Below the pieces are notes generated by a model. That model saw nothing but the letters and a program-made list of their open reading frames with translations, ran no database searches and had not been told where the DNA came from. A stretch of DNA of 64,000 nucleotides from Cystobacter fuscus. GTDB taxonomy: Bacteria; Myxococcota; Myxococcia; Myxococcales; Myxococcaceae. The stretch lies in the NCBI RefSeq assembly GCF_002305875.1, contig NZ_CP022098.1:7068001-7132000 (forward strand), read 5' to 3'. A program made the position numbers and the translations under genes. Below, piece after piece: positions 7,748 through 36,902 of this stretch (its first letter is position 1; each line of letters starts with the position of its first letter).

Positions 7748-9372
7748 TGCTCCCCATCGAGGTGCTGCTCGTCGAGGACAACCCGGCCGACGCGGACCTC
7801 ACCCGGGAGGCGCTGGCCGAGAGCAAGCTGCTGGTCAACCTGGAGGTGGTGGATGACGGGGAGAAGGCGGAGTCCTATCTGCTGCGGCTGCCTCCCTATG
7901 AGAAGGCCGTCCACCCGCACCTCGTGCTGCTGGACCTGAACCTGCCCCGTCGCAACGGGCGGGAGGTGCTGCGCACCATCCGCAGCACGCCCACGCTCAA
8001 GCACATCCCCGTGGTGGTGCTCAGCTCCTCCAACACGGAGATGGACGTGCTGAAGACCTACGGGCTGGGCGCCAACTGCTACGTGGTGAAGCCCGTGCGC
8101 TTCACGGACTTCTTCGAGATCGTCCGCATCGTGGGAGAGTTCTGGTTCACGGTGGTGCGCCTGCCCCCGCCCGAGCTTTGCACGGGAGAGCCGAGCACAC
8201 CGTCTCCGCTGCCGAAGCTGCCCGCCACGCCCATGGAGACCCCGCTCCAGGTGCTGCTGGTGGAGGACAACCCGGGGGACGCCGACCTGGTGCGCGAGTA
8301 CCTGGAGCCGCACCCGGCCTGGACACTGAGCGTCCGCGGCACGCTGCGCGAGGCGCTGGAGTTCGCCGCGGCCCAGCGCGTGGACGTGGTGCTGCTGGAC
8401 CTGGGCCTGCCGGACTGCCAGGGGCTGAACTCGCTGGAGCAGATGGTGGAGCAGCTGCCCACCACCCCCATCGTCGTGCTGACCGGCCACGAGGGCTCCA
8501 CACTGGGGCGGGTGATGGTGCGCGCCGGAGCCCAGGACTACCTGGAGAAGGACAGGCTGGACGGCAACCTGTTGACGCGCTCCATTGCCTACTCGGTGGA
8601 GCGGGCCTGGGCCAGCCGGGAACGGGATGCACTGCTGGCCCGTGCCAACGTGGCCCGGGAGCGCGCCGAGGACGCGGTGCTGCTCCGGGATGAGTTCCTC
8701 TCCGTGGCCTCCCATGAGCTGAAGACGCCGCTCACCACCTTGTTGCTGCAACAGCAGATGGTGGAGCGCGCGCTGGCGCAGGGCGGGAGGGCACCCGACC
8801 GGGACAGCCTGCAGCAGCGCACGTTGGCCATGCACAAGCAGTGCGAGCGGCTCTCCCGGCTGGTGGACTCCCTGCTGGACGTGTCCCGGCTCAGCACGGG
8901 GCGGATGATGCTGGAGCGGAGCCGGGTCGAGCTGACTCAGCTGGCCCGCGAGTGCATCGAGCGGCTGTCCCCCCAGGTGGAGGCCTCGGGTGGCACGGTG
9001 TCGCTGGAGGCGCCCACTCCCGTGGAGGGCAACTGGGACCGGTTCCGCCTGGAGCAGGTGGTGGTGAACCTGCTGACCAACGCCCTCAAATATGGAGAGG
9101 GCAAGCCCGTGGAACTCATCGTCCGCCGGGAGGGCGAGAGCGCCGTGCTGGTGGTGCGGGACCACGGCATGGGCATCCGGGAGGAGGACCAGCGGCGCAT
9201 CTTCGACCGCTTCGAGCGGGCGGCGCCGGCGCGGCACTTCGGCGGGGTGGGGCTGGGCCTCTACATCACCCGGCAGATCGTCAACGCCCACGCGGGGACC
9301 ATCGAGGTGACGAGCAAGCCGGGCGAGGGCTCCACCTTCAAGGTCCGCCTGCCGCTGCGGACCCAGGCCTGA
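7744..9372 (+). CDS. REC-REC-histidine kinase fusion
   Basis: A single open frame of 542 residues encodes a complete Rcp1-like receiver (1-150, phospho-Asp64 in LVLLDLNLP, Lys of VVKPVRF), then a Pro/Thr-rich linker. A second receiver follows (about 168-285, Asp219 in VLLDLGLP), then a HisKA helix with His324 (SVASHELKTPL) and a HATPase domain (NALKYGE, DHGMGI, GVGLGLYI). The first receiver is probably the target of the upstream coupled kinase. The second receiver plus kinase resembles proteins usually encoded separately. The internal ATG at 8233 has no ribosome binding site and there is no stop in the linker, so a genuine fusion is favoured. The family is soluble: no membrane segment is seen. 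Confidence 0.85.
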   Translation: MMLPIEVLLVEDNPADADLTREALAESKLLVNLEVVDDGEKAESYLLRLPPYEKAVHPHLVLLDLNLPRRNGREVLRTIRSTPTLKHIPVVVLSSSNTEMDVLKTYGLGANCYVVKPVRFTDFFEIVRIVGEFWFTVVRLPPPELCTGEPSTPSPLPKLPATPMETPLQVLLVEDNPGDADLVREYLEPHPAWTLSVRGTLREALEFAAAQRVDVVLLDLGLPDCQGLNSLEQMVEQLPTTPIVVLTGHEGSTLGRVMVRAGAQDYLEKDRLDGNLLTRSIAYSVERAWASRERDALLARANVARERAEDAVLLRDEFLSVASHELKTPLTTLLLQQQMVERALAQGGRAPDRDSLQQRTLAMHKQCERLSRLVDSLLDVSRLSTGRMMLERSRVELTQLARECIERLSPQVEASGGTVSLEAPTPVEGNWDRFRLEQVVVNLLTNALKYGEGKPVELIVRREGESAVLVVRDHGMGIREEDQRRIFDRFERAAPARHFGGVGLGLYITRQIVNAHAGTIEVTSKPGEGSTFKVRLPLRTQA

Positions 9373-9386
9373 GCGACGGCCTCAGG
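9368..9386. terminator. short inverted repeat between convergent stops
   Basis: CCTGAG (9368-9373) and CTCAGG (9381-9386) can form a 6-bp hairpin with a 7-base loop. It spans the stop codons of the convergent kinase and SDR genes, which are only 9 bases apart. It has no T tract, so function as a bidirectional terminator is only suggested. Confidence 0.3.
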
Positions 9387-10158
9387 ACTCGTGCAGGACG
9401 CGGCCTTCCATGCCGCCGGCCACGGTGATGACCTCTCCGGTGACATGGCCGGAGATGCGATCGGACGCGAGCGTCACCACCATCCGGGCCACGTCCTCCG
9501 GACGGCCCAGCTTGCGCAGGGGCATGGTGCGCGTCACGCGGTTGATGAACACCGGGTCGGTGAGCTTGTCCTGGTGGCGCTCCACCCCCGTCCACCCGGG
9601 GCACACGGTGTTCACCCGGCCGAGCGGAGCGATGCGCGTGAGCTCGTTCTTCAGGCTCTTGAGGAAGCCACTGGCCAGCGCGCCCTTGGCGGCCGCGTAG
9701 TCCGAGTGGCCCGCCTCGCCGAAGAGGCCCGCCGTGGAGGCGATGAGGATGATGTTGCCCGAGCCCGTCGTCTCCACGTGGCGCAGGAAGGCGCGGCAGC
9801 TCAGGAAGACACTGTCCAGGTTCTCCGCCAGGGTGCGGCGCCAGCGCGAGAGCGACATCTTCCACACGGGCTCGTCCGCGGGGGGCCACACGCCCGCGTT
9901 GGCCACCAGCACGTCCAGCCGGCCCAGGGCCTTCACCGCCGCGGGCACCAGCGCGTCCACGTCGGCTTCCGAGGTGAGATCCGCCCGGAGCGCCACGCCT
10001 CCGAGCTCCCGCGCCAGGGCCTCCGCCTTGTCCGCGCTCTGGTGGTAGTGCACCGCCACCTTCGCCTGCTCCTCCGCGAAGGCGCGCACCACCGCGCCGC
10101 CGATTCCACCCGCGCCCCCGGTGACGAGGACGCCCTTGCCCTGAAGCTCCGTGTCCAT
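9382..10158 (-). CDS. SDR family oxidoreductase
   Basis: This classical short-chain dehydrogenase/reductase has 258 residues. The Rossmann motif is VTGGAGGIGGAVV (about 12-24), NAGVW is at about 86-90, the catalytic Ser lies in ILIASTAGLFG, and the YxxxK pair is in YAAAKGA. The C-terminal segment ISGHVTGEVITVAGGMEGR is typical of FabG-like/3-oxoacyl or sugar-dehydrogenase members, so the substrate cannot be fixed. It is the last gene of a leftward series with gaps of 25-40 bases (uracil-DNA glycosylase, esterase, small secreted protein, SDR), consistent with one operon. Confidence 0.88.
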   Translation of the reverse strand: MDTELQGKGVLVTGGAGGIGGAVVRAFAEEQAKVAVHYHQSADKAEALARELGGVALRADLTSEADVDALVPAAVKALGRLDVLVANAGVWPPADEPVWKMSLSRWRRTLAENLDSVFLSCRAFLRHVETTGSGNIILIASTAGLFGEAGHSDYAAAKGALASGFLKSLKNELTRIAPLGRVNTVCPGWTGVERHQDKLTDPVFINRVTRTMPLRKLGRPEDVARMVVTLASDRISGHVTGEVITVAGGMEGRVLHES

Positions 10159-10183
10159 GCGCTGCCCCGCTCCCGCGTGAGGC

Positions 10184-10675
10184 CTACTTGCCCTTCTTCG
10201 TGGGCGCGGCCTTGGCGTAAGCGACGCTGCCCGCGATCTTCTCCACGAGCGGATCGAAGTGCTCCCGCTCCTTCCTGTCCATGTGGAAGACGAGCGACCA
10301 GGTGGTCTTCCCGTCGCACCCCACGTACGTCACCGTGCGCACCGACTCCGCCCCATCCGGGGTGGTGTCCGAGTCCACGCGCCGCGCCGCCGGGGCCTTG
10401 CCCAGCTTGAGCGGCTTCCAGCCCTCGCTCCCGCCCATGGCCGTGAGGATCTTCTCCAGGCACACCTGCGGCTTCATGCCCGCGGTCTGCACGGCACCCA
10501 CGTCCACCAGCACGTAGGCATCCCCCGACGGGTCGGCGAAGCGCTGGGTGCCATCCGCCTCGGACTGGTTCCAGTCGGAGGGCAGTTGCAGCGTGAGCGT
10601 CTTCACCTCGTGCTTCGTGAGCTCCGCCGGCTCCCCGGCCATGAGCACCGCCATCAACACCGAACCAAACATCAT
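10184..10675 (-). CDS. small exported protein of unknown function
   Basis: This 163-residue protein has a short hydrophobic N-terminus (MMFGSVLMAVLMAG) and a mature part containing LQLPSDWNQ...DPSGDAYVLVDVG. That layout resembles small periplasmic proteins that present a PsbP/Mog1-like fold, but the match is weak. A Lys-rich tail ends the protein. ATG at 10675 follows GGGAGGTACG, a good ribosome binding site. It lies within the leftward SDR/esterase series. I cannot assign a function. Confidence 0.7.
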   Translation of the reverse strand: MMFGSVLMAVLMAGEPAELTKHEVKTLTLQLPSDWNQSEADGTQRFADPSGDAYVLVDVGAVQTAGMKPQVCLEKILTAMGGSEGWKPLKLGKAPAARRVDSDTTPDGAESVRTVTYVGCDGKTTWSLVFHMDRKEREHFDPLVEKIAGSVAYAKAAPTKKGK

Positions 10676-25923: not shown

Positions 25924-27330
25924 ATGTCCAAGCGTTGCATGCTGTCGCTGGCGCTCGCCGGCGTGTCGCTCGCCGTGTCCCCGGCGGTCGCGCAGACCGT
26001 CGGCGACCCACAGAACCCGATCTTCCGCAACATGTACACCGCCGATCCCTCGGCGCATGTCTGGGCCGACGGACGGCTCTATGTCTATCCATCGCATGAC
26101 ATCGCCCCACCGCGCGGTGCCGACCTCATGGACGAGTACCATGTCTACTCGACCAACGACATGGTCAACTGGGTCGATCACGGCGAGATCCTGCGCGCCT
26201 CCAACGTGCCCTGGGGAAGGCCGGAGGGCGGCTTCATGTGGGCGCCCGATGTGGCCTACAAGAACGGTATCTATTACTTCTACTTCCCCCATCCCAGTGG
26301 AACGGACTGGAACAACACCTGGAAGATCGGCGTGGCGACGAGCACACAGCCGGCGGCGAACTTCACCGTGCAGGGATACATCCAGGGACTGGAATCGCTG
26401 ATCGATCCCGCGGTGTTCGTCGATGACGATGGCCAAGCGTATCTGTATTACGGTGGGGGAGGCATCGCCAAGGGGGGCAAGCTCAAGGCCAACATGATGG
26501 AGATCGACGGCCAGATGCAGACCATGCAGGGTCTGGTCGACTTCCACGAGGCCTCGTGGGTGCACAAGCGCAACGGGCTCTACTACCTGTCGTACGCGGA
26601 CAACTACGACCAGAATGGCGACCACAACCGCATGCGCTACGCCACGAGCACGAGCCCGCTCGGTCCGTGGACGTATCGTGGCGTCTACATCGACTCCACG
26701 GACAGCTATACGAACCACGGCTCGATCGTGCAGTACAAGGGGCAGTGGTATGCCTTCTACCACACGAGCATGCTGTCGGGGAATGATTGGCTTCGCTCGG
26801 TCAGCGTCGACAAGCTGTATTACAACAGCGACGGCACGATCCAGTTGGTCAATCAGACGAAGCAGCACGGCACGCCACACTTCGCCACCCCGCTGGCGAT
26901 TCCGGGACAGATCCAGGCGGAGGACTACGACAACGGTGCACAAGGCGTGGCGTACAGCGATGGCAGTCCGCAGAACGAAGGCGGCGCGTACCGGCCGAAC
27001 GAAGGCGTCGATGTCGGCACGATTCCCAGCGGAGGCTTCCACGTCGGTTGGGTGAGCTCCTCGGAGTGGGTGGAGTACACGGTGAACGTGGCGACGAGCG
27101 GCACGTATACCGTGTCCGCCCGGGTCGCGACGCAGACGACCAATGGCAGCTCGTTGCGCATCCTGTTCGACGGAAAGAAGGTGGGCACCCTCACCGTGCC
27201 GAACACCGGAGAGTGGCAGACCTATACGACGGTGAGCACGCAGGTGAACCTGGAGGCTGGCAAGCACATCATCCAGCTGCGTTTTGGTGACGCGCTCAAT
27301 CTGGATCACTTGACGTTCACGAAGCAGTAA
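25924..27330 (+). CDS. secreted GH43 glycosidase with CBM6
   Basis: This 468-residue secreted carbohydrase has a signal peptide (LSLALAGVSLAVSPAVAQ). A five-bladed GH43 domain covers about 30-325; the base Asp is in TADPSAHVWADGRLYVYPSH and the acid-region blades include MWAPDVAYKNGIYYFYFP and DPAVFVDDDGQAYLYYGG. A C-terminal CBM6 domain covers about 335-468 (QIQAEDYDNGAQGVAYSD...SEWVEYTVNVATSG...IQLRFGDALNLDHLTF). GH43 enzymes act mainly on arabinan or xylan side chains, and CBM6 binds xylan or beta-glucan. ATG 25924 is preceded by AGGAGCC. A short hairpin lies downstream. Confidence 0.92.
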   Translation: MSKRCMLSLALAGVSLAVSPAVAQTVGDPQNPIFRNMYTADPSAHVWADGRLYVYPSHDIAPPRGADLMDEYHVYSTNDMVNWVDHGEILRASNVPWGRPEGGFMWAPDVAYKNGIYYFYFPHPSGTDWNNTWKIGVATSTQPAANFTVQGYIQGLESLIDPAVFVDDDGQAYLYYGGGGIAKGGKLKANMMEIDGQMQTMQGLVDFHEASWVHKRNGLYYLSYADNYDQNGDHNRMRYATSTSPLGPWTYRGVYIDSTDSYTNHGSIVQYKGQWYAFYHTSMLSGNDWLRSVSVDKLYYNSDGTIQLVNQTKQHGTPHFATPLAIPGQIQAEDYDNGAQGVAYSDGSPQNEGGAYRPNEGVDVGTIPSGGFHVGWVSSSEWVEYTVNVATSGTYTVSARVATQTTNGSSLRILFDGKKVGTLTVPNTGEWQTYTTVSTQVNLEAGKHIIQLRFGDALNLDHLTFTKQ

Positions 27331-27362
27331 CGAGGTGTGGAGGTCCCCGGGCTTCCCCCTTC

Positions 27363-27384
27363 AGGGGGCTGGTCCGGGCCCCCT
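27363..27384 (+). terminator. GC-rich hairpin after the GH43 gene
   Basis: AGGGGGC (27363-27369) pairs with GCCCCCT (27378-27384) with an 8-base loop, 32 bases after the GH43 stop. No T tract follows, so its strength as a terminator is uncertain. Confidence 0.35.
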
Positions 27385-27486
27385 CCGTCGTGCCCATGGA
27401 GGACCGGGCTCCCCCTCTCCACTGCTCGTGAAGGGAAGTTCTCCGGTAGAGTCCCCCGCCCTCTCCGCCCGCGCGATCTGGAGCCC

Positions 27487-29895
27487 ATGTCCTCCGTCTC
27501 CCCAGAGCCCCCCCGGCCCGAAGCCTCTCCGCCCCGATGGCTCGTCCCCACCCTGGGCGTGGGACTCACCCTCCTCTTCTTCCATCGGGCCGTCTTCTCC
27601 GCCAACGTCTTCTTCCTGCGCGACGTGCAGCAAGTCTACGTACCGCTGTGGGAATACTGGCGCGAGCGGGTGCTCGGGGGGGAGTTTCCCCAGTGGTATC
27701 CCTTCGATGGGCTCGGGCAGCCCTACGTGGGCATGGTCGTCTCCGGCGCCTTCCACCCGGCCCAGGTGCTGTCGCTGGTGCTACCCGGGGCGCAGGGCCT
27801 CAAGTGGCTCATGCTGCTGTGCTTCCCGGTGGCGTTCCTCGGCATGAGCGCGCTGGGGCGGCGGCTCGGGTGGGGGCTCGGGGCCGCGCTGCTCGCGGCG
27901 ATGAGCTACACCTTCAGCGGCTACCTCGTCAGCATCACCAACAACACCCTGTACCTCCTGGCGGCCGTCACCGTGCCCTGGGTGTTCTGGGCGCTGGAGG
28001 GCTTTCTCAGGGCACCCACGGTGGGACGGGGGCTCGGGGTCGCCGTGCTGCTCGGGCTCGTGCTGCTCGCCGGCGACGTGCAGGGCTACGCGGTCTGTCT
28101 GGGCGGGGCCCTGCTGTGGAGCGTGAGCCGCCCGGCGTCCGGAGGCACGCCCCGCGCGCTGCTGGGGATGCTGGGAGTGGGGGTCGTCTCCCTGCTGCTG
28201 TGCGCGGTGCAGATCCTCCCGACGCTGGCGGGGCTGGGCGAGGTGCGCGCCTCGAATCAGACGCTGGCGCAGGCGACGGAGTGGTCCGTCCATCCCATGC
28301 GGCTGGTGGAGCTGGTGCTCGGGCCCCTGTTCGCGGGCGATTCCGGCGAGCCCGTCCAGGTGGCCATCAGTGCGTGGCTGCTGTCCACGTCGAGGACCGA
28401 GCTGTGGGCGGACTCGTTCTATCTCGGCGCGCCCGCGCTCGTGCTGGCGGGCGTGGCGGTGACCCGGGTGCGGGGGCCGCGCGCGGCCTTGCTGCTCGCC
28501 GCCGCCCTGGGGGTGGTGCTGCTGGCGCTCGGCAAGCACACGCCGCTCTACGGCTGGGTGTTCGATTGGGTGCCGCCGTGGCGGGCCTTCCGCTACCCCG
28601 AGAAGCTGATGACGTTCGTCACCTTCACGGTGTGCCTGGCGGCGGGCGTGGGGTGGGAGCGGCTCGAGCACGCGCCCGACGTCCGGCGCCGGATGGGGCA
28701 CGGCGTGCTCGGGCTGGGCGGACTGGTGCTCGCGGTGGGCGGCGCGGAGTGGCTCGGCCACGTGTTCTCCGAGGGGATGTTGTCCGGCCTGTGGATGGGG
28801 CCGCCATGGCCCGAGGCCCAGCGGCGCATCGGCGAGCACTTCGTGCTGGGCTGTGGGCTGGCGGGCGGGAGCCTGCTCGCGTTGGGGGGCATCCTCGGCG
28901 GGGTGCGCTCGGCGGAGGCGCGGGCCGGGCTCGTGGGGGTGGTGGGCTTCGGGGGGCTGCTGCTGGCCAATGGCGACATCTACAAGGTGGGAGAGCCGGA
29001 GCTGTTCGACGAGCCAACGCCCTTCGTCCTGCGCATCCAGGAGGAGCTGCGCGAGCAGTTCGGTCCGCCGCCTCGGGTGTACCGGCTGTTGGGCCGCTAC
29101 TACACGCCGCACCCCTTGCCACTGCCCACCTTGGCGGAGACGAACGCGCTCATCATGGGCGCCTCACTGATGCCGCTCGTGCCAGCGCTCTTCGGCCTGG
29201 AGAGCTCGAGCGCGTACATGCCCGCCGTGTCGCGACGGGTGGCGGACGTGCAGGCGGAGACGAGATCCTGGGTGCGTCGCACCGCGGGCCTGTTCCACAC
29301 GCGCTACTTCATCCTCTCGAGCGAGTCGAGCGAGGTCACCGCACTGGTGGCGGAGCCGCTCCGGGTGCTGGAGCGGCTGGACGCCTTCGGGCTGTGGCTG
29401 GTGGAGGACTCGAACGCGCTGCCACGCGCGTACCTCGCCCACCCGCGCTGTGTGACGGCTCCGAGAGAGGCGCTGCGGCGGCTCGGGAGCATCCAGGCCC
29501 CGCGCGAGGTGGTGGTGGAGTGCGCGGCGCCCCTGCCCGAGCCGCCGCTGGAGGCACCCCGGGGCGAGGTCACCGCCGTCCGATCCCTACCGGAGCGGGT
29601 GGAGGTGGAGGTGCAGGCGCGGGGCGGAGAGGTGCTGGTGCTCAACGACGCCTACTACGGAGGATGGACGGCGAGCGTGGACGGGGAGCCGGTGCCCATC
29701 CTGCCCGCCAATGGGGCGGTGCGCGCGGTGGCGGTGCCCCCGGGGGCGCATCAGGTGGTCTTCCGCTACCGCACGCCCGGGCTGGCCGTGGGCGCCGGGG
29801 TGAGCCTGGGCACGCTGCTCGTGCTGCTCGGCGTGGATGGAGTGCTACGGCGGCGGCTCACGCCAAGGGCCGGGAGAACAACGAGTTTCTCGTGA
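27487..29895 (+). CDS. YfhO-like polytopic membrane protein
   Basis: This 802-residue integral membrane protein has about 12 hydrophobic helices from 18 to 520 and a soluble extracytoplasmic part from about 520 to 770. The first loop contains FFLRDVQQVYVPLWEYWRER and WYPFDGLGQPYVG. The later helix WVPPWRAFRYPEKLMTF matches YfhO-family proteins, which belong to the GT-C glycosyltransferase-like superfamily. The C-terminal domain ends VLNDAYYGGWTASVDGEPV and VFRYRTPGLAVGAGVSL, also typical of YfhO. YfhO itself is linked to glycosylation of surface polymers. The start at 27487 is chosen over a frame open further upstream because it precedes the first helix directly. Confidence 0.8.
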   Translation: MSSVSPEPPRPEASPPRWLVPTLGVGLTLLFFHRAVFSANVFFLRDVQQVYVPLWEYWRERVLGGEFPQWYPFDGLGQPYVGMVVSGAFHPAQVLSLVLPGAQGLKWLMLLCFPVAFLGMSALGRRLGWGLGAALLAAMSYTFSGYLVSITNNTLYLLAAVTVPWVFWALEGFLRAPTVGRGLGVAVLLGLVLLAGDVQGYAVCLGGALLWSVSRPASGGTPRALLGMLGVGVVSLLLCAVQILPTLAGLGEVRASNQTLAQATEWSVHPMRLVELVLGPLFAGDSGEPVQVAISAWLLSTSRTELWADSFYLGAPALVLAGVAVTRVRGPRAALLLAAALGVVLLALGKHTPLYGWVFDWVPPWRAFRYPEKLMTFVTFTVCLAAGVGWERLEHAPDVRRRMGHGVLGLGGLVLAVGGAEWLGHVFSEGMLSGLWMGPPWPEAQRRIGEHFVLGCGLAGGSLLALGGILGGVRSAEARAGLVGVVGFGGLLLANGDIYKVGEPELFDEPTPFVLRIQEELREQFGPPPRVYRLLGRYYTPHPLPLPTLAETNALIMGASLMPLVPALFGLESSSAYMPAVSRRVADVQAETRSWVRRTAGLFHTRYFILSSESSEVTALVAEPLRVLERLDAFGLWLVEDSNALPRAYLAHPRCVTAPREALRRLGSIQAPREVVVECAAPLPEPPLEAPRGEVTAVRSLPERVEVEVQARGGEVLVLNDAYYGGWTASVDGEPVPILPANGAVRAVAVPPGAHQVVFRYRTPGLAVGAGVSLGTLLVLLGVDGVLRRRLTPRAGRTTSFS

Positions 29896-29905
29896 GCCCC
29901 GAGAG

Positions 29906-29928
29906 GCGGCCGGAGGGCGCCTGGCCGC
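29906..29928 (+). terminator. hairpin after the YfhO-like gene
   Basis: GCGGCC (29906-29911) and GGCCGC (29923-29928) form a 6-bp stem, 11 bases beyond the stop of the membrane-protein gene. It separates that gene from the peptide locus. It has no T tract. Confidence 0.3.
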
Positions 29929-30110
29929 TTGCGTCCGGCGGACAAGCGAGACCCGGGGCCTGGCGAAGGAGACCGTCGGCGTGGCCCTGGATGCCCGCGA
30001 ACTGGAAGCCGATCACAAAGCCGGACTCGGTTCTCCATCCATTTGGGCCGGTTTTCCAAATCCTCCCTACCGGAGGAGCCGGAGCCCGAATCACCCACAT
30101 GGAGGCCGTC

Positions 30111-30161
30111 ATGAAGAACCGTCGCAAGAATGGTGAGTACCTCGGCAGTCTGCTGGGCTGA
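30111..30161 (+). CDS. 16-residue peptide gene (precursor or leader peptide candidate)
   Basis: A 17-codon frame encodes MKNRRKNGEYLGSLLG. GGAGG at 30101-30105 is 5 bases before ATG 30111, one of the best ribosome binding sites in the region. An in-frame ATG at 30099 lacks such a site. The peptide has a basic N-terminal half (KNRRK) and a small hydrophobic C-terminal half with three Leu and three Gly. Fourteen bases after the stop is a perfect intrinsic terminator, followed by an M29-like hydrolase and AzlC/AzlD exporter genes. Two readings are possible: a ribosomal precursor peptide whose own terminator makes it more abundant than its enzymes, or a leader peptide of a translation-controlled attenuator. 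I know no family for it. Confidence 0.5.
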   Translation: MKNRRKNGEYLGSLLG

Positions 30162-30163
30162 AG

Positions 30164-30179
30164 CTGGCTATCAGGCCAG
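30164..30179 (+). promoter_or_regulatory. alternative stem overlapping the terminator
   Basis: CTGGC at 30164-30168 can pair with GCCAG at 30175-30179 (6-base loop). The same GCCAG is the 5' arm of the terminator, whose 3' arm ends in another CTGGC (30193-30197). The two structures are mutually exclusive, which is the layout of an attenuator. The stem starts 3 bases after the peptide stop, where a ribosome stalled at the end of the peptide would cover it. Confidence 0.35.
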
Positions 30180-30207
30180 GGGGATGTTCCCCCTGGCTTG
30201 TTTATTT
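30175..30207 (+). terminator. intrinsic terminator downstream of the peptide gene
   Basis: GCCAGGGGGA (30175-30184) and TCCCCCTGGC (30188-30197) form a perfect 10-bp stem with a 3-base loop. It is followed directly by the T-rich tail TTGTTTATTT (30198-30207). It is the most canonical rho-independent terminator noticed in the window. It stands between the 16-residue peptide gene and the M29-like gene, so it must be leaky or regulated if all are one transcript. Confidence 0.8.
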
Positions 30208-30241
30208 CCAGTGGCCTTGTTTTTCCCTGAAGGAACTCGTC

Positions 30242-31330
30242 ATGAAGCCAGCCTCCATCTCTCCAGCCCGAATTCGTCAGTTTGGCGATCCAGAAGATGC
30301 CGCCTTCTGTCTTGTGACAAACAGGGAGTTCATCAGCCAGATCCACCTGGAACGAGAGGGCGGATATAGCGACTACCTCATTCTCGAGTATGAGAATGGG
30401 GATCGGTTCAGTGAATTGCTCGCGAAGAAAATCCCGGAGCATGCGCACATTCTGGTGATCTCCCCCAATGCGTTCTTCCAGTCTCCTCGCGCCGAGGAGT
30501 TGGGCAGTCGGCGCAAGTTACTCGCCATGGCCTGCAACTCGACACCCACCGCATGGGACATGATCCCCCGCTTCCTGAAGATCGTCGAGGATACCGATCC
30601 GGAAGAGCAGCAGCGCTTCACGGACCGTTTCTTCGCGATGGGAGAGGCCTCCGCCTATCTGGAGTTCGTCGACGAGCGGTATGGCACGCGAGCCAGGCTC
30701 GAACATCTCGACGAGCGCTACTTGTGGAACGAGCAGGCGGGTCTGCTCAACTGGGGCGGCCAGCAGCTCGCCCCCTCGGGAGAGATCAGCGTCCTGCCGC
30801 TCCACATCTGGGACTTCGATTCCAACCTCTACTTGAAGTTCAATGGCACCATCGCCATCCAGGGCTACCCCATCCTGCACAATGGCACGCCCAGCTTCCT
30901 GCGTGCCGATCAGGCCCGTATCCATGGGCAGCTCGCCTGCCTCTCACGGGAGGCGCTCATCGCGACGGTGGAGAACGGCAGGATCGTCGATCTCAAGGCA
31001 GCGGGGCCCGAGGCACAGCCCGCACATGACATGATGACCGCGATGTTCGAGGTCGATTCCCGCTACCGCATCATCTGGGAACTGGGCTTCGCCATCAACA
31101 CACACTCGACCATCGTGCCAGGCAATTTCGCGATGAACGAGGTCTTCGGCGCGGAGAATGGCACGATCCACTTCGGCCTCGGCTTGACCCCCCACACCCA
31201 GTACCACCTCGACCTCATCTGCCCTGGCCTCACGGTACTCACCGACAAGGGCCAGGTCGTGCTCGGCCGCCGCGGGCCCGTCGGCGCCATGCCACGTGTG
31301 CGCGCAGAGGGTTGTGCGTGCCTGGAGTGA
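30242..31330 (+). CDS. M29-aminopeptidase-like metalloprotein
   Basis: This 362-residue cytoplasmic protein has a C-terminal 100 residues that match the M29 (aminopeptidase T)/NicX fold. WELGFAINTHSTIVPGN supplies a Glu, FAMNEVFGAENGTIHFGLG a Glu and a His, and YHLDLICPG a His and an Asp, so all expected metal ligands are present. The N-terminal half (about 1-200) is divergent from true aminopeptidases and I do not recognise it. M29 enzymes release N-terminal residues from peptides; the related NicX is an iron dioxygenase. ATG 30242 follows AAGGA. It is coupled to azlC by a TGATG overlap. Given the tiny peptide gene just upstream, peptide trimming is a reasonable guess. Confidence 0.6.
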   Translation: MKPASISPARIRQFGDPEDAAFCLVTNREFISQIHLEREGGYSDYLILEYENGDRFSELLAKKIPEHAHILVISPNAFFQSPRAEELGSRRKLLAMACNSTPTAWDMIPRFLKIVEDTDPEEQQRFTDRFFAMGEASAYLEFVDERYGTRARLEHLDERYLWNEQAGLLNWGGQQLAPSGEISVLPLHIWDFDSNLYLKFNGTIAIQGYPILHNGTPSFLRADQARIHGQLACLSREALIATVENGRIVDLKAAGPEAQPAHDMMTAMFEVDSRYRIIWELGFAINTHSTIVPGNFAMNEVFGAENGTIHFGLGLTPHTQYHLDLICPGLTVLTDKGQVVLGRRGPVGAMPRVRAEGCACLE

Positions 31331-32019
31331 TGCTCCAGAGCCGGACGGGACTGGCGCGCTCGATCTCCGTCGGGCTCGCGCTGTTTCCGGTGGGACTGTT
31401 GTTCGGGTTGACCGCCGCACAAAATGGCTGGCGGCCAATGGAAGTCTTCGCGCTCAGCGCGATCGGCTTCACGGGGAGCGGCCAGTTCGCCCTGCTGGCG
31501 CTGACCAAGGAGGGAGTTGCTCCCCTGCTGATCTTCTTGATCATCCTGCTGATCAACCTGCGCTATGTGCCCATGGCGTTCACCGCCGCCAGAGGCATGG
31601 ACGGGGCCGTGGGCAAGCGGGCGACGTTGGCTCACTTCGTCAGCGACGAGTCCTATGCGGTCGAGCAGATCGCCGACCCGCCCGCCGTGCGCGCGTCGAT
31701 CCGGCTCTGGATCGCCCTCTTCTGGGTCGCGTCCACTACCGCCGGGGCCCTCGTCGCCATGTTGCTGCCGGCGCATTGGGCGGGCTCCATCGGCGCGGTC
31801 ACCTTTCCAGCCAACGCGTTGCTCATCCTGCTGGCGCTGCTGCGCGTGCGAGCCTTCGTGGAGCGCCTGGGCCGGCGCGGCCTGGCGGCGATCCTGGCAA
31901 GTCTCCCCATCGCGCTCGGCATCCGGATCCTTCTGGGCAGCAAGCTGTTCTGGCTGCCCAGCATCCTCCTGGTCGGGCTCACCATCCATTGGATCTGCAA
32001 AGCGAGGGACGCGTCGTGA
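31330..32019 (+). CDS. azlC: AzlC-family branched-chain amino-acid exporter subunit
   Basis: This 229-residue integral membrane protein of the AzlC family has about six helices, with the family segment IGFTGSGQFALLALTKEG and LRYVPMAFTAAR near residues 40-90. Together with AzlD it exports branched-chain amino acids or their analogues. ATG 31330 overlaps the stop of the M29-like gene (TGATG), and the stop overlaps the GTG start of azlD, so the three genes are translationally coupled. The family is usually found as azlCD alone or with a regulator. Linkage to an M29-like protein and a tiny peptide is unusual and may mean that the exported compound is the product of this locus. Confidence 0.88.
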   Translation: MLQSRTGLARSISVGLALFPVGLLFGLTAAQNGWRPMEVFALSAIGFTGSGQFALLALTKEGVAPLLIFLIILLINLRYVPMAFTAARGMDGAVGKRATLAHFVSDESYAVEQIADPPAVRASIRLWIALFWVASTTAGALVAMLLPAHWAGSIGAVTFPANALLILLALLRVRAFVERLGRRGLAAILASLPIALGIRILLGSKLFWLPSILLVGLTIHWICKARDAS

Positions 32020-32333
32020 CGACCACGGCCTGGATCGGTATCACCCTCTTGCTGGGTGTCAGCCTGGTCGTCCGCGTCTTTCCGGCCTTGCTGCGCCCGC
32101 CCCTCTCCCAGGCCACGCTGGAGCAGATCGAGACCATCCTGCCCATTGCCGTGCTGATCAACCTGGCCATCTTCTCCGCGAGCAGCGAGATAGCGGCGGC
32201 GCCTGGCCCGGCGCTGCTGGGGCTGGGGATCCTGGGCGTGTTGACGTTCGCAGCGCGTACCGTTCCCATCCTGGTGACGCTGATCGCGTCCACCACCGCT
32301 TTCCTCCTGCTCCTCACGGCGCTGAATCGCTGA
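32016..32333 (+). CDS. azlD: AzlD-family exporter subunit
   Basis: This 105-residue, four-helix protein of the AzlD family starts with GTG at 32016 inside the end of azlC (4-base GTGA overlap). It shows the conserved RVFPALLR and ILPIAVLINLAIFS segments and ends in a hydrophobic helix. AzlD is the obligate small partner of AzlC. A weak inverted repeat follows the gene at 32357-32379, after which the AfsA-like operon starts. Confidence 0.87.
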   Translation: MTTTAWIGITLLLGVSLVVRVFPALLRPPLSQATLEQIETILPIAVLINLAIFSASSEIAAAPGPALLGLGILGVLTFAARTVPILVTLIASTTAFLLLLTALNR

Positions 32334-32356
32334 GGCCTGGGGCATCGGCACCGCAC

Positions 32357-32379
32357 AGCTCCAGGAGGACCAGGGAGCT
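32357..32379 (+). terminator. weak hairpin after azlD
   Basis: AGCTCC (32357-32362) pairs with GGAGCT (32374-32379) around an 11-base loop, 24 bases after the azlD stop. No T tract follows. If active it would separate the exporter operon from the AfsA-like operon that starts at 32491. Confidence 0.22.
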
Positions 32380-32490
32380 CGCCTCCGCCGGGCCATCCGT
32401 CACATCAGATCGCAGCCGTGTCCATCCAGTTGGCCCCGGGATGCGCTGGGCCGATCCCGCGAATGGACCACGCTGACGGATGGTGTCTGT

Positions 32491-33141
32491 ATGCAAGAGG
32501 CAATGCTCATCGAAGATGGGGTTGACGGCCGGGACACTCCGGGAGTGGTGGACGAGGTTCCCGCCGGAGTGCTCGAGAAGCTGAAGGAGTGGGTGAAGAC
32601 GTTCGACCCTTCCGCCCGACTCCAGCTTCCACGGCACCTGGTCCACAAGAGCGATCCACGCAACGTCTTCATCGCCCGGCTCGAGCGCGTCTCGGAGGCA
32701 CGGCCAGACGAACTCGCGGCGCAGCTCATCTTCGACCCAACCCATCCGTACCACTTCGAGCACCCGCAGGACCACGTCCCGGGAATGATGCTCATGGAGG
32801 CAGGTCGGCAACTCGGGCTGGCGGTGACGCACCTGTTCTACGGGGTAGCGCTGGACGCCATGTTCGTGCTCAACGACGTGAAGGCCCGCTTCCGCCGCTT
32901 CGCGGAGCTGGGCGAGCCCGTCTTCGTGTACTCGGCCGTGCACGAGAAGGAGTACCGGCGGGGGCGCCTCATCTCGATGCGCCAGGCGGGGCTCTTCATC
33001 CAGCGGGGCGAGTTCCTCGGCTCGATGGAGGGAAGCTGGAGCGTGTACGACCGGCGGCTCATGGAGCGGCTCCGGCGCCGACCGCGGCCGGGGGATGGAT
33101 CGGCCACTTCCCGCCCGATGACGGCCCCTGCCACGGAGTGA
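32491..33141 (+). CDS. AfsA-type hotdog-domain protein (single domain)
   Basis: This 216-residue protein has one A-factor-biosynthesis hotdog domain (PF03756). It shows LVHKSDPRNVFIARLERV (50-67) and HPYHFEHPQDHVPGMMLMEA (85-104), followed by GRQ. The His91, Asp94-His95 and Glu103...Arg106-Gln107 pattern is the AfsA active-site signature. AfsA makes gamma-butyrolactone precursors by joining a beta-ketoacyl chain to dihydroxyacetone phosphate; AfsA has two such domains, this protein only one. It opens an operon of four further genes with overlaps or very short gaps. It may act on an acyl thioester in making a small lipid-like molecule (inference). Confidence 0.78.
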   Translation: MQEAMLIEDGVDGRDTPGVVDEVPAGVLEKLKEWVKTFDPSARLQLPRHLVHKSDPRNVFIARLERVSEARPDELAAQLIFDPTHPYHFEHPQDHVPGMMLMEAGRQLGLAVTHLFYGVALDAMFVLNDVKARFRRFAELGEPVFVYSAVHEKEYRRGRLISMRQAGLFIQRGEFLGSMEGSWSVYDRRLMERLRRRPRPGDGSATSRPMTAPATE

Positions 33142-33146
33142 TGCCC

Positions 33147-34448
33147 ATGACGAAACACTATGTGGTGGTGGGGGGCGGTGTGTCCGGCATCGCCGCGGCG
33201 CACTACCTCCGGGAGGCGGGGGCCGAGGTGGAGCTCGTCGAGCAGGAGGACACGCTGGGCGGGCGCGTGGCGCCAGCGTTGCTCGACGGCCAGCCCATCG
33301 AGCTGGGGGGCAAGAACATCGGCCGACGCTACCTCCTCTTCCGCGAGTTCGCGCGGAAGATGGGGCAGACGGACTTCGAGCCTTTCGGCATCAACTCCTC
33401 GCGCGTGCGGCCCGACGGCCGGCTGATGACCGTGGACAGCTCGCACCGATGGCGCGGCGTGCGGGAACTGATGCGGGCCTGTCCTTCCTCGGACCTGCTC
33501 CGCTTCGCCACGCTCTGCGCGCGCGCGATCTCCCGCCCGGAGAACGGCTACCTGGGCTCCGTCCGCTTCGATGCCCTCGGAGAGCACCGGGATGACCGCC
33601 CGCTGAGCGCGTACTTCAGCCAGGCCTTCAGCGAGGCCGTGCTCCGCCCCATGGTGGTCCGGATGAATGGCGCCGAGCCGGACGAGGTCTTCCCCGGCAA
33701 CGTCGGCACCAACCTCCGGATGCTCCTGGACACGTACGAGCAGCCGAAGCGCGGCATGCGGGCCCTCTTCGATCGCTTCGCGAGGACCGTGCGGGTGACG
33801 CGAGGCACTCGCGCCCGAGGGTTGGTGGTGCGGGGCGGGCGGGTAGCGGCCCTGGAACTGGAGGGGCCCGGGGGCGCCCGCGAGGAGCGCACGTGTGATG
33901 GGGTGCTGCTCGCCCTGCCCGCGCACCCCAGCGCCGCGCTGCTGGCTCCGCACGCGCCGGGTCTGGCCCTGGCGCTCGGCCACGTGCGCTACTTCCCGGT
34001 GCTGGTGGTGGTGGCCCGGTACGCGCGGAAGGTCTTCTCCCCCTCCACCCGCGCGCTCGTCTTCGGCCCGGAGCACCCGCTGAGCAACGCGGGGGCGTAC
34101 GGCATCAACGCCCTGGACGTGGTGCGCTACACGTTCAGCGGGCGCACCGCACGCCGGGCCCTGGCGGCCGGGACGGACGTGGAGGCGCTGCTGCGCGTGG
34201 GAGAGAAACTGCTCGGCCACCACTTCCCCGTCCACCCCGCCGAGCGGGTGGCCTCCGTCGCGCGGCGCTTCGAGCCGGGACTGTGCGCCTACACGCCCCA
34301 CCATGCCCGCCTGCGGCGCGAGCTGAACGCTGGCCTGGGGAGGCTCCACGGCCTCCAGCTCGCCGGGGACTACCTGCGGGGCGCCTCCATCGAGGCCTGC
34401 TTCCGCGCGGCGAAGGAATCCGCGGGGCGGATGCTGAGGAACCGATGA
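33147..34448 (+). CDS. FAD-dependent amine-oxidase/desaturase-like oxidoreductase
   Basis: This 433-residue flavoprotein of the amine oxidase/protoporphyrinogen oxidase/phytoene desaturase superfamily has the FAD-binding motif VVVGGGVSGIAAAHYLREAG, a Glu at the strand end (VELVEQEDTLGGRV), and a C-terminal LAGDYLRGASIEACFRAAK that closes the FAD site. The middle is the substrate domain, with no signal peptide. ATG 33147 lies 8 bases after GGAG, which spans the previous stop (another ATG at 33141 overlaps the TGA). The protein would oxidise or desaturate the intermediate handled by its neighbours. The next start codon overlaps its stop or lies 50 bases later. Confidence 0.83.
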   Translation: MTKHYVVVGGGVSGIAAAHYLREAGAEVELVEQEDTLGGRVAPALLDGQPIELGGKNIGRRYLLFREFARKMGQTDFEPFGINSSRVRPDGRLMTVDSSHRWRGVRELMRACPSSDLLRFATLCARAISRPENGYLGSVRFDALGEHRDDRPLSAYFSQAFSEAVLRPMVVRMNGAEPDEVFPGNVGTNLRMLLDTYEQPKRGMRALFDRFARTVRVTRGTRARGLVVRGGRVAALELEGPGGAREERTCDGVLLALPAHPSAALLAPHAPGLALALGHVRYFPVLVVVARYARKVFSPSTRALVFGPEHPLSNAGAYGINALDVVRYTFSGRTARRALAAGTDVEALLRVGEKLLGHHFPVHPAERVASVARRFEPGLCAYTPHHARLRRELNAGLGRLHGLQLAGDYLRGASIEACFRAAKESAGRMLRNR

Positions 34449-34495
34449 GCGGCGCTGACTCGCCACCTGACGAGTGCAAGCAAAGGAGAGAACGG

Positions 34496-35971
34496 ATGCG
34501 GAAATACTATCTGGGGCCGGAGGCCAGCCATGAAGTGCCGTTCAAGAGGCTCCTGGCGATCTCCCACTACATCATGCCCAACTTCGGCACTCTGGAGTGG
34601 GATCGGGTCTCGCGCGAGCAGGTGGACAAGAACCTGCGCTCGCTGCAGGACCCGGGAGGGGCGCTGAACGACGAGCTGATGATGTACATCCACGTGCCGT
34701 ACTGCCAGTCGTTCTGCCATTACTGCAACTTCAACAAGAACCACTATCCCTGGCAGGACGAGGAGCGGCTCCAGCGCTACACGGACTACCTCATCAAGGA
34801 GATCGACTACTACCTGTCGCTCCCCTACGTGCAGGCGCGGAGATTCACGGCCATCTACATCGGGGGAGGAAGCCCTTCCACGCTCCCGGTCTCGGCAGTG
34901 GAGCGGCTGTTCGCGCACCTCGCGAAGGTAGCGCCGGGGTTCGACACCCTCGAGAAGACGTTCACGGGCGAGCCGCGCACGCTGCGCAAGCCGGAGCTGC
35001 TGAAGGTACTCCACGACTACGGCTTCGACCGCGTGACGTTCGGCATCGAGACGCTCAACCCGGAGATCCACAAGAAGATAGGCCGGTGGGACTCTCCGAG
35101 CGACGTGGACGCGGTGTTCGAGGGGCTGGAGAAGCTGGGGTACGAGGGCGACCGCTGCGTCGACCTCATGTATGACCTGCCGGGGCAATCGCTGGTGGGC
35201 TTCCAGGAGGAGCTGGCGACACTGGTGGAGCACTACCGACCGGACGAGATCGACGCGTTCGGGACCGTGTACCTGCCGTACCGGCCGCTGCACAAGCTCA
35301 TCCTCGACGGACGGGTGCCACAACCTGGGAGCATCTGGCAGCTCCTGCGGATGCGCGAGCACCTGTATGACTACCTGCTGGAGAACGACTACCACAACAC
35401 CATCGCCGAGACGTACTCGCGCAAGCCCCAGCGCAGCATGTACCAGACGGCGCACTGCGCGCGGCAGGACATCATCGGCATCGGCTGCGCGGCACGCAGC
35501 AACATCAAGGACATGGTGTCCATCAACCCGGACAAGGTCGATGTCTGGATGAACAACATCGATCAGTACGGGGTGTCCACGCAGACACTGCAGAGCATCG
35601 GGCGGAGCGGAGTGCTGGACCGGATCATGGTGATGTTCCCGCGCTACAAGGAACTCTCCAAGGAGTTGCTCGACCGCTACTCGGACGTGGAGCACTTCGA
35701 GCAGGTGGAGGACGTCCTGCGCTCGCATCTCGAGGTGGGGTGCGTGGAGGAGCAGGAGGGCCGGTACGTCGTCAACAAGCTGGGCGTCATCTGGCACGGC
35801 AACCTGCAGACGGACTACATGGAGCGTTCGCTGAACCTGCAGGGAAAGGTCCTCCTGAAGGTCATCTCGGAGAAGGAGAGCCACTTCGATCGAGAGGAGC
35901 GCTTCAAGGTGAACAAGGCGACCCGGTTCATCGCGAAGCACATCGACAAGTACCCGAAGCTGATGAAGTAG
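34496..35971 (+). CDS. HemN/HemW-like radical SAM protein
   Basis: This 491-residue radical SAM enzyme has cluster cysteines Cys70, Cys74 and Cys77 in CQSFCHYC, preceded by the HemN-type YIHVPY. The SAM-binding GGGSPSTL follows at about 123. The coproporphyrinogen-oxidase-like C-terminal region includes IGIGCAARSNI and a long helical tail. Enzymes of this subfamily perform oxidative decarboxylation, methyl transfer or cyclopropanation. Nothing here suggests haem synthesis. The strong AAAGGAG at 34482-34488, 7 bases before ATG 34496, fixes this start, although an overlapping ATG at 34445 is also in frame. It follows the FAD gene directly in the operon. Confidence 0.83.
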   Translation: MRKYYLGPEASHEVPFKRLLAISHYIMPNFGTLEWDRVSREQVDKNLRSLQDPGGALNDELMMYIHVPYCQSFCHYCNFNKNHYPWQDEERLQRYTDYLIKEIDYYLSLPYVQARRFTAIYIGGGSPSTLPVSAVERLFAHLAKVAPGFDTLEKTFTGEPRTLRKPELLKVLHDYGFDRVTFGIETLNPEIHKKIGRWDSPSDVDAVFEGLEKLGYEGDRCVDLMYDLPGQSLVGFQEELATLVEHYRPDEIDAFGTVYLPYRPLHKLILDGRVPQPGSIWQLLRMREHLYDYLLENDYHNTIAETYSRKPQRSMYQTAHCARQDIIGIGCAARSNIKDMVSINPDKVDVWMNNIDQYGVSTQTLQSIGRSGVLDRIMVMFPRYKELSKELLDRYSDVEHFEQVEDVLRSHLEVGCVEEQEGRYVVNKLGVIWHGNLQTDYMERSLNLQGKVLLKVISEKESHFDREERFKVNKATRFIAKHIDKYPKLMK

Positions 35972-35990
35972 CCCGGGAAGGGGGCACCCG

Positions 35991-36902
35991 ATGGTCGACG
36001 TGGTGCGCAGGCGCGAGCTCGTACCGGTGGAGGATGGTACGCGGCTGGAACTGGAGGTCTTCGAGCAGGTGGAGGAAAGGAAGGCACCGGTTCTCCTGTG
36101 CCTGCCAGCGATGGGAGTCCCGGCGAGGTACTACGAGCCGTTCGCGCTCGAGTTGCACCGGCGGGGTTTCCACGTCGTCACGAGCGACCTGCGCGGGCAC
36201 GGGGCGAGCTCCGTACGAGTGGGCCGGGGGACGGACTTCGGCTACTACGAGATGGTGGCGCGAGACCTGAAGGCGGTGGTGCGGGCGGTGCGCGCTGCCT
36301 TCCAGGACAGCCCGCTGTTCCTGCTGGGGCACAGCCTGGGTGGGCAGCTCGGCTCGCTCTACCTGGGCCTGGAGGGTGAGGGAATACGAGGGCTCGTCCT
36401 CGTGGCGGCCTCTTCGGTGTACTACCGGAACTACGGGGCGCTGGGCGGTGTGAAGGTGCTGCTCGGCACGCAGCTCGCGGCGGTCATCGCCACGGTGTGG
36501 GGGTACTTCCCGGGGCGGAGGCTACGGTTCGCGGACAACGAGTCGACCCGGGTGATGCGGGACTGGGCGCGCCAGGCGAGGAGGGGGCGCTACGTGCTCT
36601 CCGGGGCCGCGCAGGACTTCGAGGCGCTGCTCGCCCGGGTGGAGCGGCCGGTGCTGGCCATCTCGGTGGAGGGGGATTCGCTGGCGCCACCGGCCGCGGT
36701 GGAGCACCTGTACGGGAAGATGCCTCGGGCCCGGGTGGTGCGGTGGCACTTCACGCGGTCCGATGCCGGGGGAGCGCACCTGGATCACTTCCGCTGGGTA
36801 CGCCACGGTGCTTCCGTGGCGGCGCGCATCGCGGGATGGGTGGGAGAGGTGCTCGCGGGAGAGATAGGCTCCGGCCAAGACCCGCAAAGAGGTGAAACAT
36901 GA
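35991..36902 (+). CDS. alpha/beta hydrolase (serine-aminopeptidase/monoglyceride-lipase-like)
   Basis: This 303-residue alpha/beta hydrolase has nucleophile Ser115 in LLGHSLGGQL, an oxyanion/entry motif LCLPAMGVPARYYEPFALEL, the DLRGHGASS loop, an acid in ISVEGDSLAPP, and a His near the end (AHLDHFRWV). There is no signal peptide. ATG 35991 follows AAGGGGGC, 19 bases after the radical SAM stop, and its stop overlaps the lipoprotein start (ATGA). It probably hydrolyses a thioester or ester product of the operon (inference from context). Confidence 0.85.
   Translation: MVDVVRRRELVPVEDGTRLELEVFEQVEERKAPVLLCLPAMGVPARYYEPFALELHRRGFHVVTSDLRGHGASSVRVGRGTDFGYYEMVARDLKAVVRAVRAAFQDSPLFLLGHSLGGQLGSLYLGLEGEGIRGLVLVAASSVYYRNYGALGGVKVLLGTQLAAVIATVWGYFPGRRLRFADNESTRVMRDWARQARRGRYVLSGAAQDFEALLARVERPVLAISVEGDSLAPPAAVEHLYGKMPRARVVRWHFTRSDAGGAHLDHFRWVRHGASVAARIAGWVGEVLAGEIGSGQDPQRGET

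Follow-up and report, generated by a model that had tools for sequence, protein, structure and literature searches.

Introduction

Crocagin biosynthesis in Chondromyces crocatus provides a close described parallel to the genes studied here. In the available text of the published work, the proteins CgnB and CgnE are reported to bind the 21-residue precursor CgnA, which has a basic leader; two Zn are bound in CgnB by E, E, E, H, H and D, and this protein was proposed as an elimination catalyst, the ligands are lost in CgnE, and aminopeptidase activity was not observed for either protein (PMC10070186). As far as the same text goes, homologues of CgnB and CgnE from about 100 genomes, some of them single-copy, have already been published together with candidate precursors derived with RiPPER (Adam et al. 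2023, PMC10070186). A second system, the gvg cluster for 4-formylaminooxyvinylglycine in Pseudomonas fluorescens WH6, is described in the accessible parts of two reports as requiring small frames, one of them lysine-rich, and as containing amino-acid exporters (PMC8067088, PMC8064604).

Here we analysed a window of 64,000 nucleotides from Cystobacter fuscus (contig NZ_CP022098.1, positions 7,068,001 to 7,132,000 of the forward strand), "the window" being this whole stretch. An original prediction, made from the sequence by itself, had pointed at 30111-32333 as a possible system for a peptide-derived product, consisting of a 16-residue peptide frame, a terminator and three downstream genes, and all of these elements were present as claimed (Table 1). 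Our comparison suggests that the locus is probably a minimal CgnB-type cassette for a ribosomally synthesised and post-translationally modified peptide (RiPP), directed toward a small amino-acid-like product, with the chemistry put forward as a proposal.

Conservation of the 16-residue peptide

Relatives of the 362-residue protein encoded behind the peptide were collected at 39 loci by scanning genome contigs with an alignment that included distant homologues from Streptomyces plasmids; a scan of the contigs with the single sequence gave no relatives. The 39 loci span Pseudomonadota, Actinomycetota, Cyanobacteriota, Chloroflexota and Acidobacteriota. In 32 of them, the gene of this CgnB-like protein, called M29-like in the original prediction, is adjoined by a short frame that ends in KNxxYLGTLLG. 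The same was seen on a Paraburkholderia largidicola plasmid found by tblastn, where a 58% relative stands in the same arrangement as in the window, with the peptide MKNRKKNAEYLGTLLG, a hairpin, AzlC and AzlD. All 40 core-bearing copies, taken from the 32 loci, Paraburkholderia and the window, read KNxxYLG[T/S]LLG.

The DNA of the core (seven codons and the stop) occurred in 22 distinct versions, between which the Leu codons varied freely, and the sole amino-acid difference was the Ser of the window in place of Thr. Pairwise comparison of the core gave 913 synonymous against 21 non-synonymous codon differences, all 21 from that Ser; the ratio is descriptive, as the pairs share ancestry and are non-independent. 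Conservation of the peptide in relatives, which had been set beforehand as the check that could refute the prediction, was thus borne out, as was conservation of the C-terminal half against synonymous change. The N-terminal half of the peptide is basic. Two Acinetobacter loci have four peptide copies in tandem, spaced at about 99 bases and each having a ribosome-binding site of its own.

The pattern Y-L-G-[T/S]-L-L-G-stop occurred once in the 12.35-Mb genome of the window and not at all in the reversed control; over 15 genomes or records it was present in nine, again with 0 reversed-control matches. Because the pattern is this rare and is found again next to this gene in other phyla, the sequence comparison indicates that the peptide frame is more than chance and is a conserved gene.

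Seven loci were without a YLGTLLG frame. In L014 the contig ends shortly after the CgnB-like gene, and L047 comes from a genome in which another contig, L043, carries the peptide. Three loci of a distant type (L048-L050) have a longer frame instead, ending YGKYDRLQG or YGKYDRLEG. A metagenome-assembled genome of Holophagaceae (L045) encodes a 43% CgnB-like protein; upstream of it, at 7860-7990, is the variant peptide MHRNTNNAYVGYLIR, followed by a hairpin. At the seventh locus, L044 (Calothrix, 9119-10483), the CgnB-like gene overlaps a 454-residue frame that, judged by eye, we take to resemble a glutamate-cysteine ligase.

A tblastn search of plasmids also found distant (about 26%) CgnB-like relatives on 8 Streptomyces plasmids. 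On two of these (L010 and L011), the gene is preceded by a frame of 40-46 residues with the end YGKYDRLEG and by a hairpin, and lies near GntD-like and non-ribosomal peptide synthetase genes, with a radical S-adenosylmethionine (SAM) gene also present in L010. The core-pattern search of 119 Acinetobacter genomes gave 9 with matches; in the eight other than the seed G196, the matches encoded different peptides, containing Phe, Trp, Arg or a stop, and the reversed control matched five genomes. Four of the Acinetobacter genomes (L065, L067, L068 and L072) have the frame end YLGSLFG-stop in common.

Fold and metal-ligand positions of the 362-residue protein

The 362-residue protein had been described as an M29-like hydrolase with all metal ligands. 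In Pfam, the M29 family (PF02073) scored 13.7 bits and did not reach its gathering cut-off of 27, and 1 of 36 family members matched it at even E 0.1. The AlphaFold2 model of the protein had a mean predicted local distance difference test score (pLDDT) of 90.9, and the fold search placed it next to CgnE (Z 22.3 over 293 residues, root-mean-square deviation 3.6) and CgnB (Z 21.8 over 288 residues, deviation 3.5), both of which have PDB entries found in this way. NicX matched with Z 20.8 and 20.7 and was the first match of Foldseek (E 1.8e-11), while the M29 aminopeptidases were lower, with Z 13.7-15.5. With Pfam below the cut-off and the fold search in favour of CgnE, CgnB and NicX, the plain M29 aminopeptidase reading was dropped, and the model indicates that the protein is of the CgnB/CgnE/NicX fold and is no recognisable aminopeptidase. 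Of the original description, the six ligand positions stood (E181, E280, E300, H310, H322 and D324, matched to CgnB by their order and residue type rather than by superposition) and the hydrolase label did not. The protein is acidic, with a net charge of -14.

The six ligands occurred together with a C-terminal CxC tail in 8/8 single-copy proteins of the main branch, whereas the distant proteins L048-L050 keep the ligands without the tail. Where a locus has two copies, the first kept the ligands without the tail in 28/28 cases (including L014, whose second copy is not seen), and the second had lost the H322 and D324 positions in 28/28 and kept the tail in 27/28, Nostoc being the exception; three partial proteins are left out of these counts. 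Loss of the metal site in second copies is also described for CgnB/CgnE homologues in the available text of Adam et al. (PMC10070186), and the ligand loss seen here extends this tendency to a distant branch. A second CgnB-like copy was not found in the window's own genome, where the search gave one match at E up to 0.001.

Minimal and extended architectures

Six loci (the window, L009, L012, L015, L017 and L022) showed a minimal architecture consisting of the peptide, one CgnB-fold protein, AzlC and AzlD. They form one clade (SH-aLRT, a Shimodaira-Hasegawa-like approximate likelihood ratio test, 97) in a quick tree that has several long branches and omits three partial proteins, namely L043 121-498 and two fragments of L047. 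A pairwise check of neighbours, with 8 unlisted pairs between two closely related Acinetobacter loci set apart, gave the CgnB-like gene, AzlC and AzlD as the genes common to all six, together with shadow frames; one further pair linked L009 17492-17971 with L022 7239-7526. AzlC and AzlD neighbours were found together in these six loci only. The predicted amino-acid-type exporter pair was upheld: AzlC of the window passes PF03591 (92.9 bits, cut-off 32.1), and the AzlD protein of the window has no match to PF05437, which is matched by 4/6 proteins at the AzlD position of the minimal loci (best 2.1e-8). L045 gave no AzlD match and has an AzlC relative (27% identity) on the opposite strand, at a distance of about 4 kb. 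In Acinetobacter calcoaceticus (L015:3927-7163), the cassette stands directly after a type I-F Cas3 gene.

An extended architecture was found at 26 loci (for example L038:7968-13086), with two CgnB-like paralogues, a haem-oxygenase-like protein and a GNAT-fold protein. Here the peptide sits between the two CgnB-like genes, and an AzlC/AzlD relative was not found. DUF2817 is present in 24 of the 26, and relatives of an amino-acid ligase of S. noursei (dapdiamide-synthase-like, far below the model cut-off) in 12. The haem-oxygenase-like protein of S. noursei scored 23.9 bits with PF14518, below the cut-off of 28.9, and the profile of its family (A5) matches MboA, the alkyne-forming protein of mangotoxin, with E 2.6e-27. 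In the window's own genome, profile A5 had no match with E of 0.001 or below. Of the other minimal-type records searched, G199 and the Paraburkholderia plasmid were likewise without a match, and the Acinetobacter genome G196 gave one divergent match with two in-frame stops. The Nostoc locus L018 has two paralogues, with no oxidase or GNAT-fold match within its 7.9 kb.

Among 195 genomes of the window's own phylum, the protein search found the 362-residue protein in 2, its own genome and the same-genus genome G092; two further genomes of the genus gave no match. G092 (L005, reverse strand) holds a decayed cassette within rearranged flanks. Its peptide frame shares six residues and then runs into downstream sequence, its large gene is frameshifted and carries deletions, and large deletions are also present in its exporter genes. 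In a draw of the genus Streptomyces, 17/246 genomes had relatives (seed included, mixed branches).

The hairpin after the peptide

Between 29850 and 30300 there are 2 terminator-like sites, one nested in the other, against a mean of 0.4 in shuffled sequences. The 70 bases 3' of the peptide folded with z < -3 in 24/34 loci, compared with 4/203 control stretches, and the mean z was -3.6 against -0.3 in controls, with -4.05 for the window. In the tandem loci of Acinetobacter, the spacers between copies were unfolded (0 to -0.3 kcal/mol) and a hairpin followed the last copy only (-18.6 and -19.8). The best fold of 30100-30210 reached -47.1 kcal/mol, and -29.5 kcal/mol when the 3' arm of the terminator was blocked. 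Pairing of the coding region with the terminator 5' arm was equalled in strength by 4.8% of random synonymous recodings, and a clear antiterminator was not found in the pairing tests of the peptide region.

Cassette layout and surroundings

Table 1. Features of the peptide cassette and the genes downstream of it, in positions of the window
Feature	Position	Strand	Remarks
Ribosome-binding site GGAGG	30101..30105	+	five bases 5' of the peptide ATG, from sequence
Precursor-like peptide MKNRRKNGEYLGSLLG, 16 residues	30111..30161 (ATG to TGA)	+	C-terminus KNxxYLG[T/S]LLG conserved
Intrinsic-terminator-like hairpin between peptide and large gene	30172..30210; stem 30172-30200	+	T-rich tail
CgnB/CgnE-fold (M29/NicX superfamily) protein, 362 aa	30242..31330	+	six conserved ligand positions, C-terminal CxC tail
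AzlC-type amino-acid exporter, large subunit	31327..32019	+	PF03591
AzlD-type exporter, small subunit	32016..32333	+	GTG start
AfsA-type gene	32491-33141	+	downstream of cassette
FAD (flavin adenine dinucleotide) amine-oxidase-type frame	within 32589-34448	+	downstream of cassette
Radical SAM frame	within 34283-35971	+	downstream of cassette
Alpha/beta hydrolase	35991-36902	+	downstream of cassette

The CgnB-like gene, azlC and azlD are coupled through overlapping stop and start codons. The 4-base overlap of azlD with the end of azlC agrees with the original prediction, and the overlap upstream depends on the start chosen for azlC, being 4 bases for GTG 31327 and 1 base for ATG 31330. The content of guanine and cytosine drops from 0.70-0.75 in the 2 kb upstream to 0.55-0.63 across the peptide frame and the gene of the 362-residue protein, which would be consistent with acquisition from another source. 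Within 29850-30300, no match to a sigma-70-type promoter was found. The same-strand run from the AfsA-type gene to the hydrolase (32491-36902) was not common to the other minimal loci; it may be a separate pathway, or it may serve the peptide.

Discussion

The window cassette resembles crocagin in the CgnB/CgnE fold, in the six ligand positions present in a single copy and in a short precursor with a basic leader. It differs in the core, which reads YLGSLLG (YLG[T/S]LLG in the family) instead of IYW, so that the conserved Tyr-Trp was not found, and in having an AzlCD exporter and no metal-less second copy, with 13-14% identity over the fold. A CgnC-type dioxygenase was not detected in Pfam scans of 19 frames at 25924-36899, the rest of the genome lying outside this search, and, unlike in crocagin, no methyltransferase was detected in the frames scanned near the cassette. 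Since the crocagin core and the metal-less second copy were both looked for and were absent, the cassette is not filed as a crocagin member. NicX, a 2,5-dihydroxypyridine dioxygenase, is alike in fold (Z 20.8) and differs as a catabolic enzyme for a small aromatic; to our knowledge, it has no peptide partner. The M29 aminopeptidases PepS, AmpT and AmpS have the superfamily fold and keep the ligand positions, and differ in the missed Pfam cut-off and the Z of 13.7-15.5. Compared by published description only, as far as the accessible parts of the gvg reports go, gvg is alike in its small frames and amino-acid exporters, and its product is a non-proteinogenic amino acid, while its enzymes (esterase-like, haem-oxygenase-like and carbamoyltransferase) are different.

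The statement that no described family has this gene set was uncontradicted in the literature searched, where neither the string YLGTLLG nor AzlC combined with M29 or RiPP terms gave a relevant match, with the supplementary data of Adam et al. beyond the search; it needs qualification in view of crocagin, for which the available text describes similar proteins with short basic precursors (PMC10070186). What is new is the minimal CgnB-type set with its YLG[T/S]LLG peptide. CgnB/CgnE homologues and candidate precursors in general were known, and the peptides themselves may already be in the supplement of Adam et al.

The co-conservation of the peptide with a CgnB-fold protein bears out the predicted resemblance to a RiPP-type precursor cassette, and the joint decay of the peptide, CgnB-like and exporter genes in the same-genus genome G092 also counts in its favour. 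In the mechanism that we propose, the hairpin and the gene copies would keep the peptide in excess, its basic leader would be bound by the acidic CgnB-like protein, which would act on the C-terminal core, and an amino-acid-sized product would be released and, judging from the exporter family, exported by AzlCD. For the chemical step we lean, by analogy with the proposal for CgnB, to a metal-dependent elimination or cyclisation. In the window, the downstream radical SAM, amine-oxidase-type and hydrolase genes could add steps. For crocagin, the available text proposes that CgnB eliminates a beta-hydroxyl that an oxygenase has introduced (PMC10070186). A version in which elimination would use the natural beta-hydroxyl of the core Thr/Ser is, by this analogy, conceivable and unlikely, and it would explain why no oxygenase is common to the minimal cassettes.

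Several observations weigh against the RiPP cassette reading. The family sequence profiles found no CgnB or CgnE chain among PDB sequences (A3 at E up to 10; A2 without a match at E up to 1), so that the kinship to CgnB and CgnE is one of fold alone, at 13-14% identity. Product, transcript and modification are predicted here, and neither a CgnC-like oxygenase nor a releasing hydrolase is common to the minimal cassettes. Post-peptide folding fell short of z -3 in 10/34 loci, with L013, L019, L025 and L030 above -1. The distribution is sparse, a Pseudomonadota draw of 398 genomes giving the seed and 1 weak partial match and a Cyanobacteria draw of 244 genomes the seed alone. In L045, where the core is YVGYLIR, a Tyr takes the place of the Thr; provided that this peptide is a true homologue, it speaks against the Thr/Ser version. 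In L044, no such peptide was detected beside the CgnB-like gene. The YLG-like Acinetobacter matches beyond the seed were set aside, with their neighbours outside the check.

Among other explanations, the main one retains the peptide as substrate and changes the chemistry, and is in this sense a version of the RiPP cassette reading: the CgnB-like protein would be a NicX-like oxygenase that uses Fe(II) and O2 to modify the conserved Tyr or another core residue. The rank of NicX in Foldseek and its Z close to those of CgnE and CgnB speak for it, as do the Tyr present in every core seen, including L045, and the lack of a separate oxygenase common to the minimal loci. Against this stands the match, in order and letter, of the six positions to the dinuclear Zn ligands that the available crocagin text gives for CgnB (PMC10070186), the NicX ligands being outside the comparison, and we regard NicX-like oxygenation as rather unlikely. 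A plain M29 peptidase that degrades this or other peptides, with AzlCD exporting surplus amino acids, would share the fold and keep the six ligand positions. Such a role is quite improbable, as the protein is far below the Pfam M29 cut-off and matched by a single family member, strict conservation of a 16-mer is unexpected under bulk degradation, and aminopeptidase activity was, in the available text, not observed for the structural kin CgnB and CgnE (PMC10070186).

The remaining explanations take the peptide as something other than a substrate. The original prediction had offered as its alternative that the peptide is an attenuator leader, in which the ribosome would sense leucine at the three Leu codons of YLGSLLG and the hairpin would control the exporter genes. 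The terminator-like stem starts ten bases past the peptide stop with these codons nearby, AzlCD-type proteins export amino acids, and pairing of the coding region with the terminator 5' arm is somewhat above that of random synonymous recodings. What would be expected of such a leader, conservation of the regulatory codons rather than of the peptide, was not what we found: the Leu codons vary freely, and residues unrelated to Leu (KN, Y and G) are invariant in 40/40 copies. In Acinetobacter a single hairpin follows a row of four tandem copies, the extended type places the peptide between two CgnB-like genes where no AzlC/AzlD relative was found, and blocking the terminator 3' arm costs 17.6 kcal/mol relative to the best fold of 30100-30210. 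An attenuator leader is therefore poorly supported and very improbable. Finally, a short peptide adjoining a peptide-binding fold could be a signal with its receptor. This is most improbable, as the minimal loci have in common only AzlC and AzlD beside the CgnB-like gene, hence no regulator or peptide exporter, and the extended type places the family among biosynthetic enzymes.

Returning to the RiPP cassette reading, we tentatively suggest, as a possibility short of even likelihood, that a single CgnB-fold metalloprotein, without a dedicated oxygenase, turns the YLG[T/S]LLG core into an amino-acid-sized product exported by AzlCD. This would be a nearly minimal ribosomal pathway, spread across phyla, and an ancestor or a reduced form of the larger oxidase-containing pathway of Actinobacteria.

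Very short precursor frames such as this one are easily overlooked by annotation. The crocagin work, in its available text, leaves open what CgnB-type proteins do alone (PMC10070186). In the minimal loci, such a protein is found repeatedly alongside an exporter and one 16-residue peptide as its candidate substrate. In the extended clusters, the ligand set and the CxC tail are split over two paralogues, which is a ready test of the role of each part. As the minimal cassette has no other common neighbours, a two-gene reconstitution could show the function of a CgnB-type protein.

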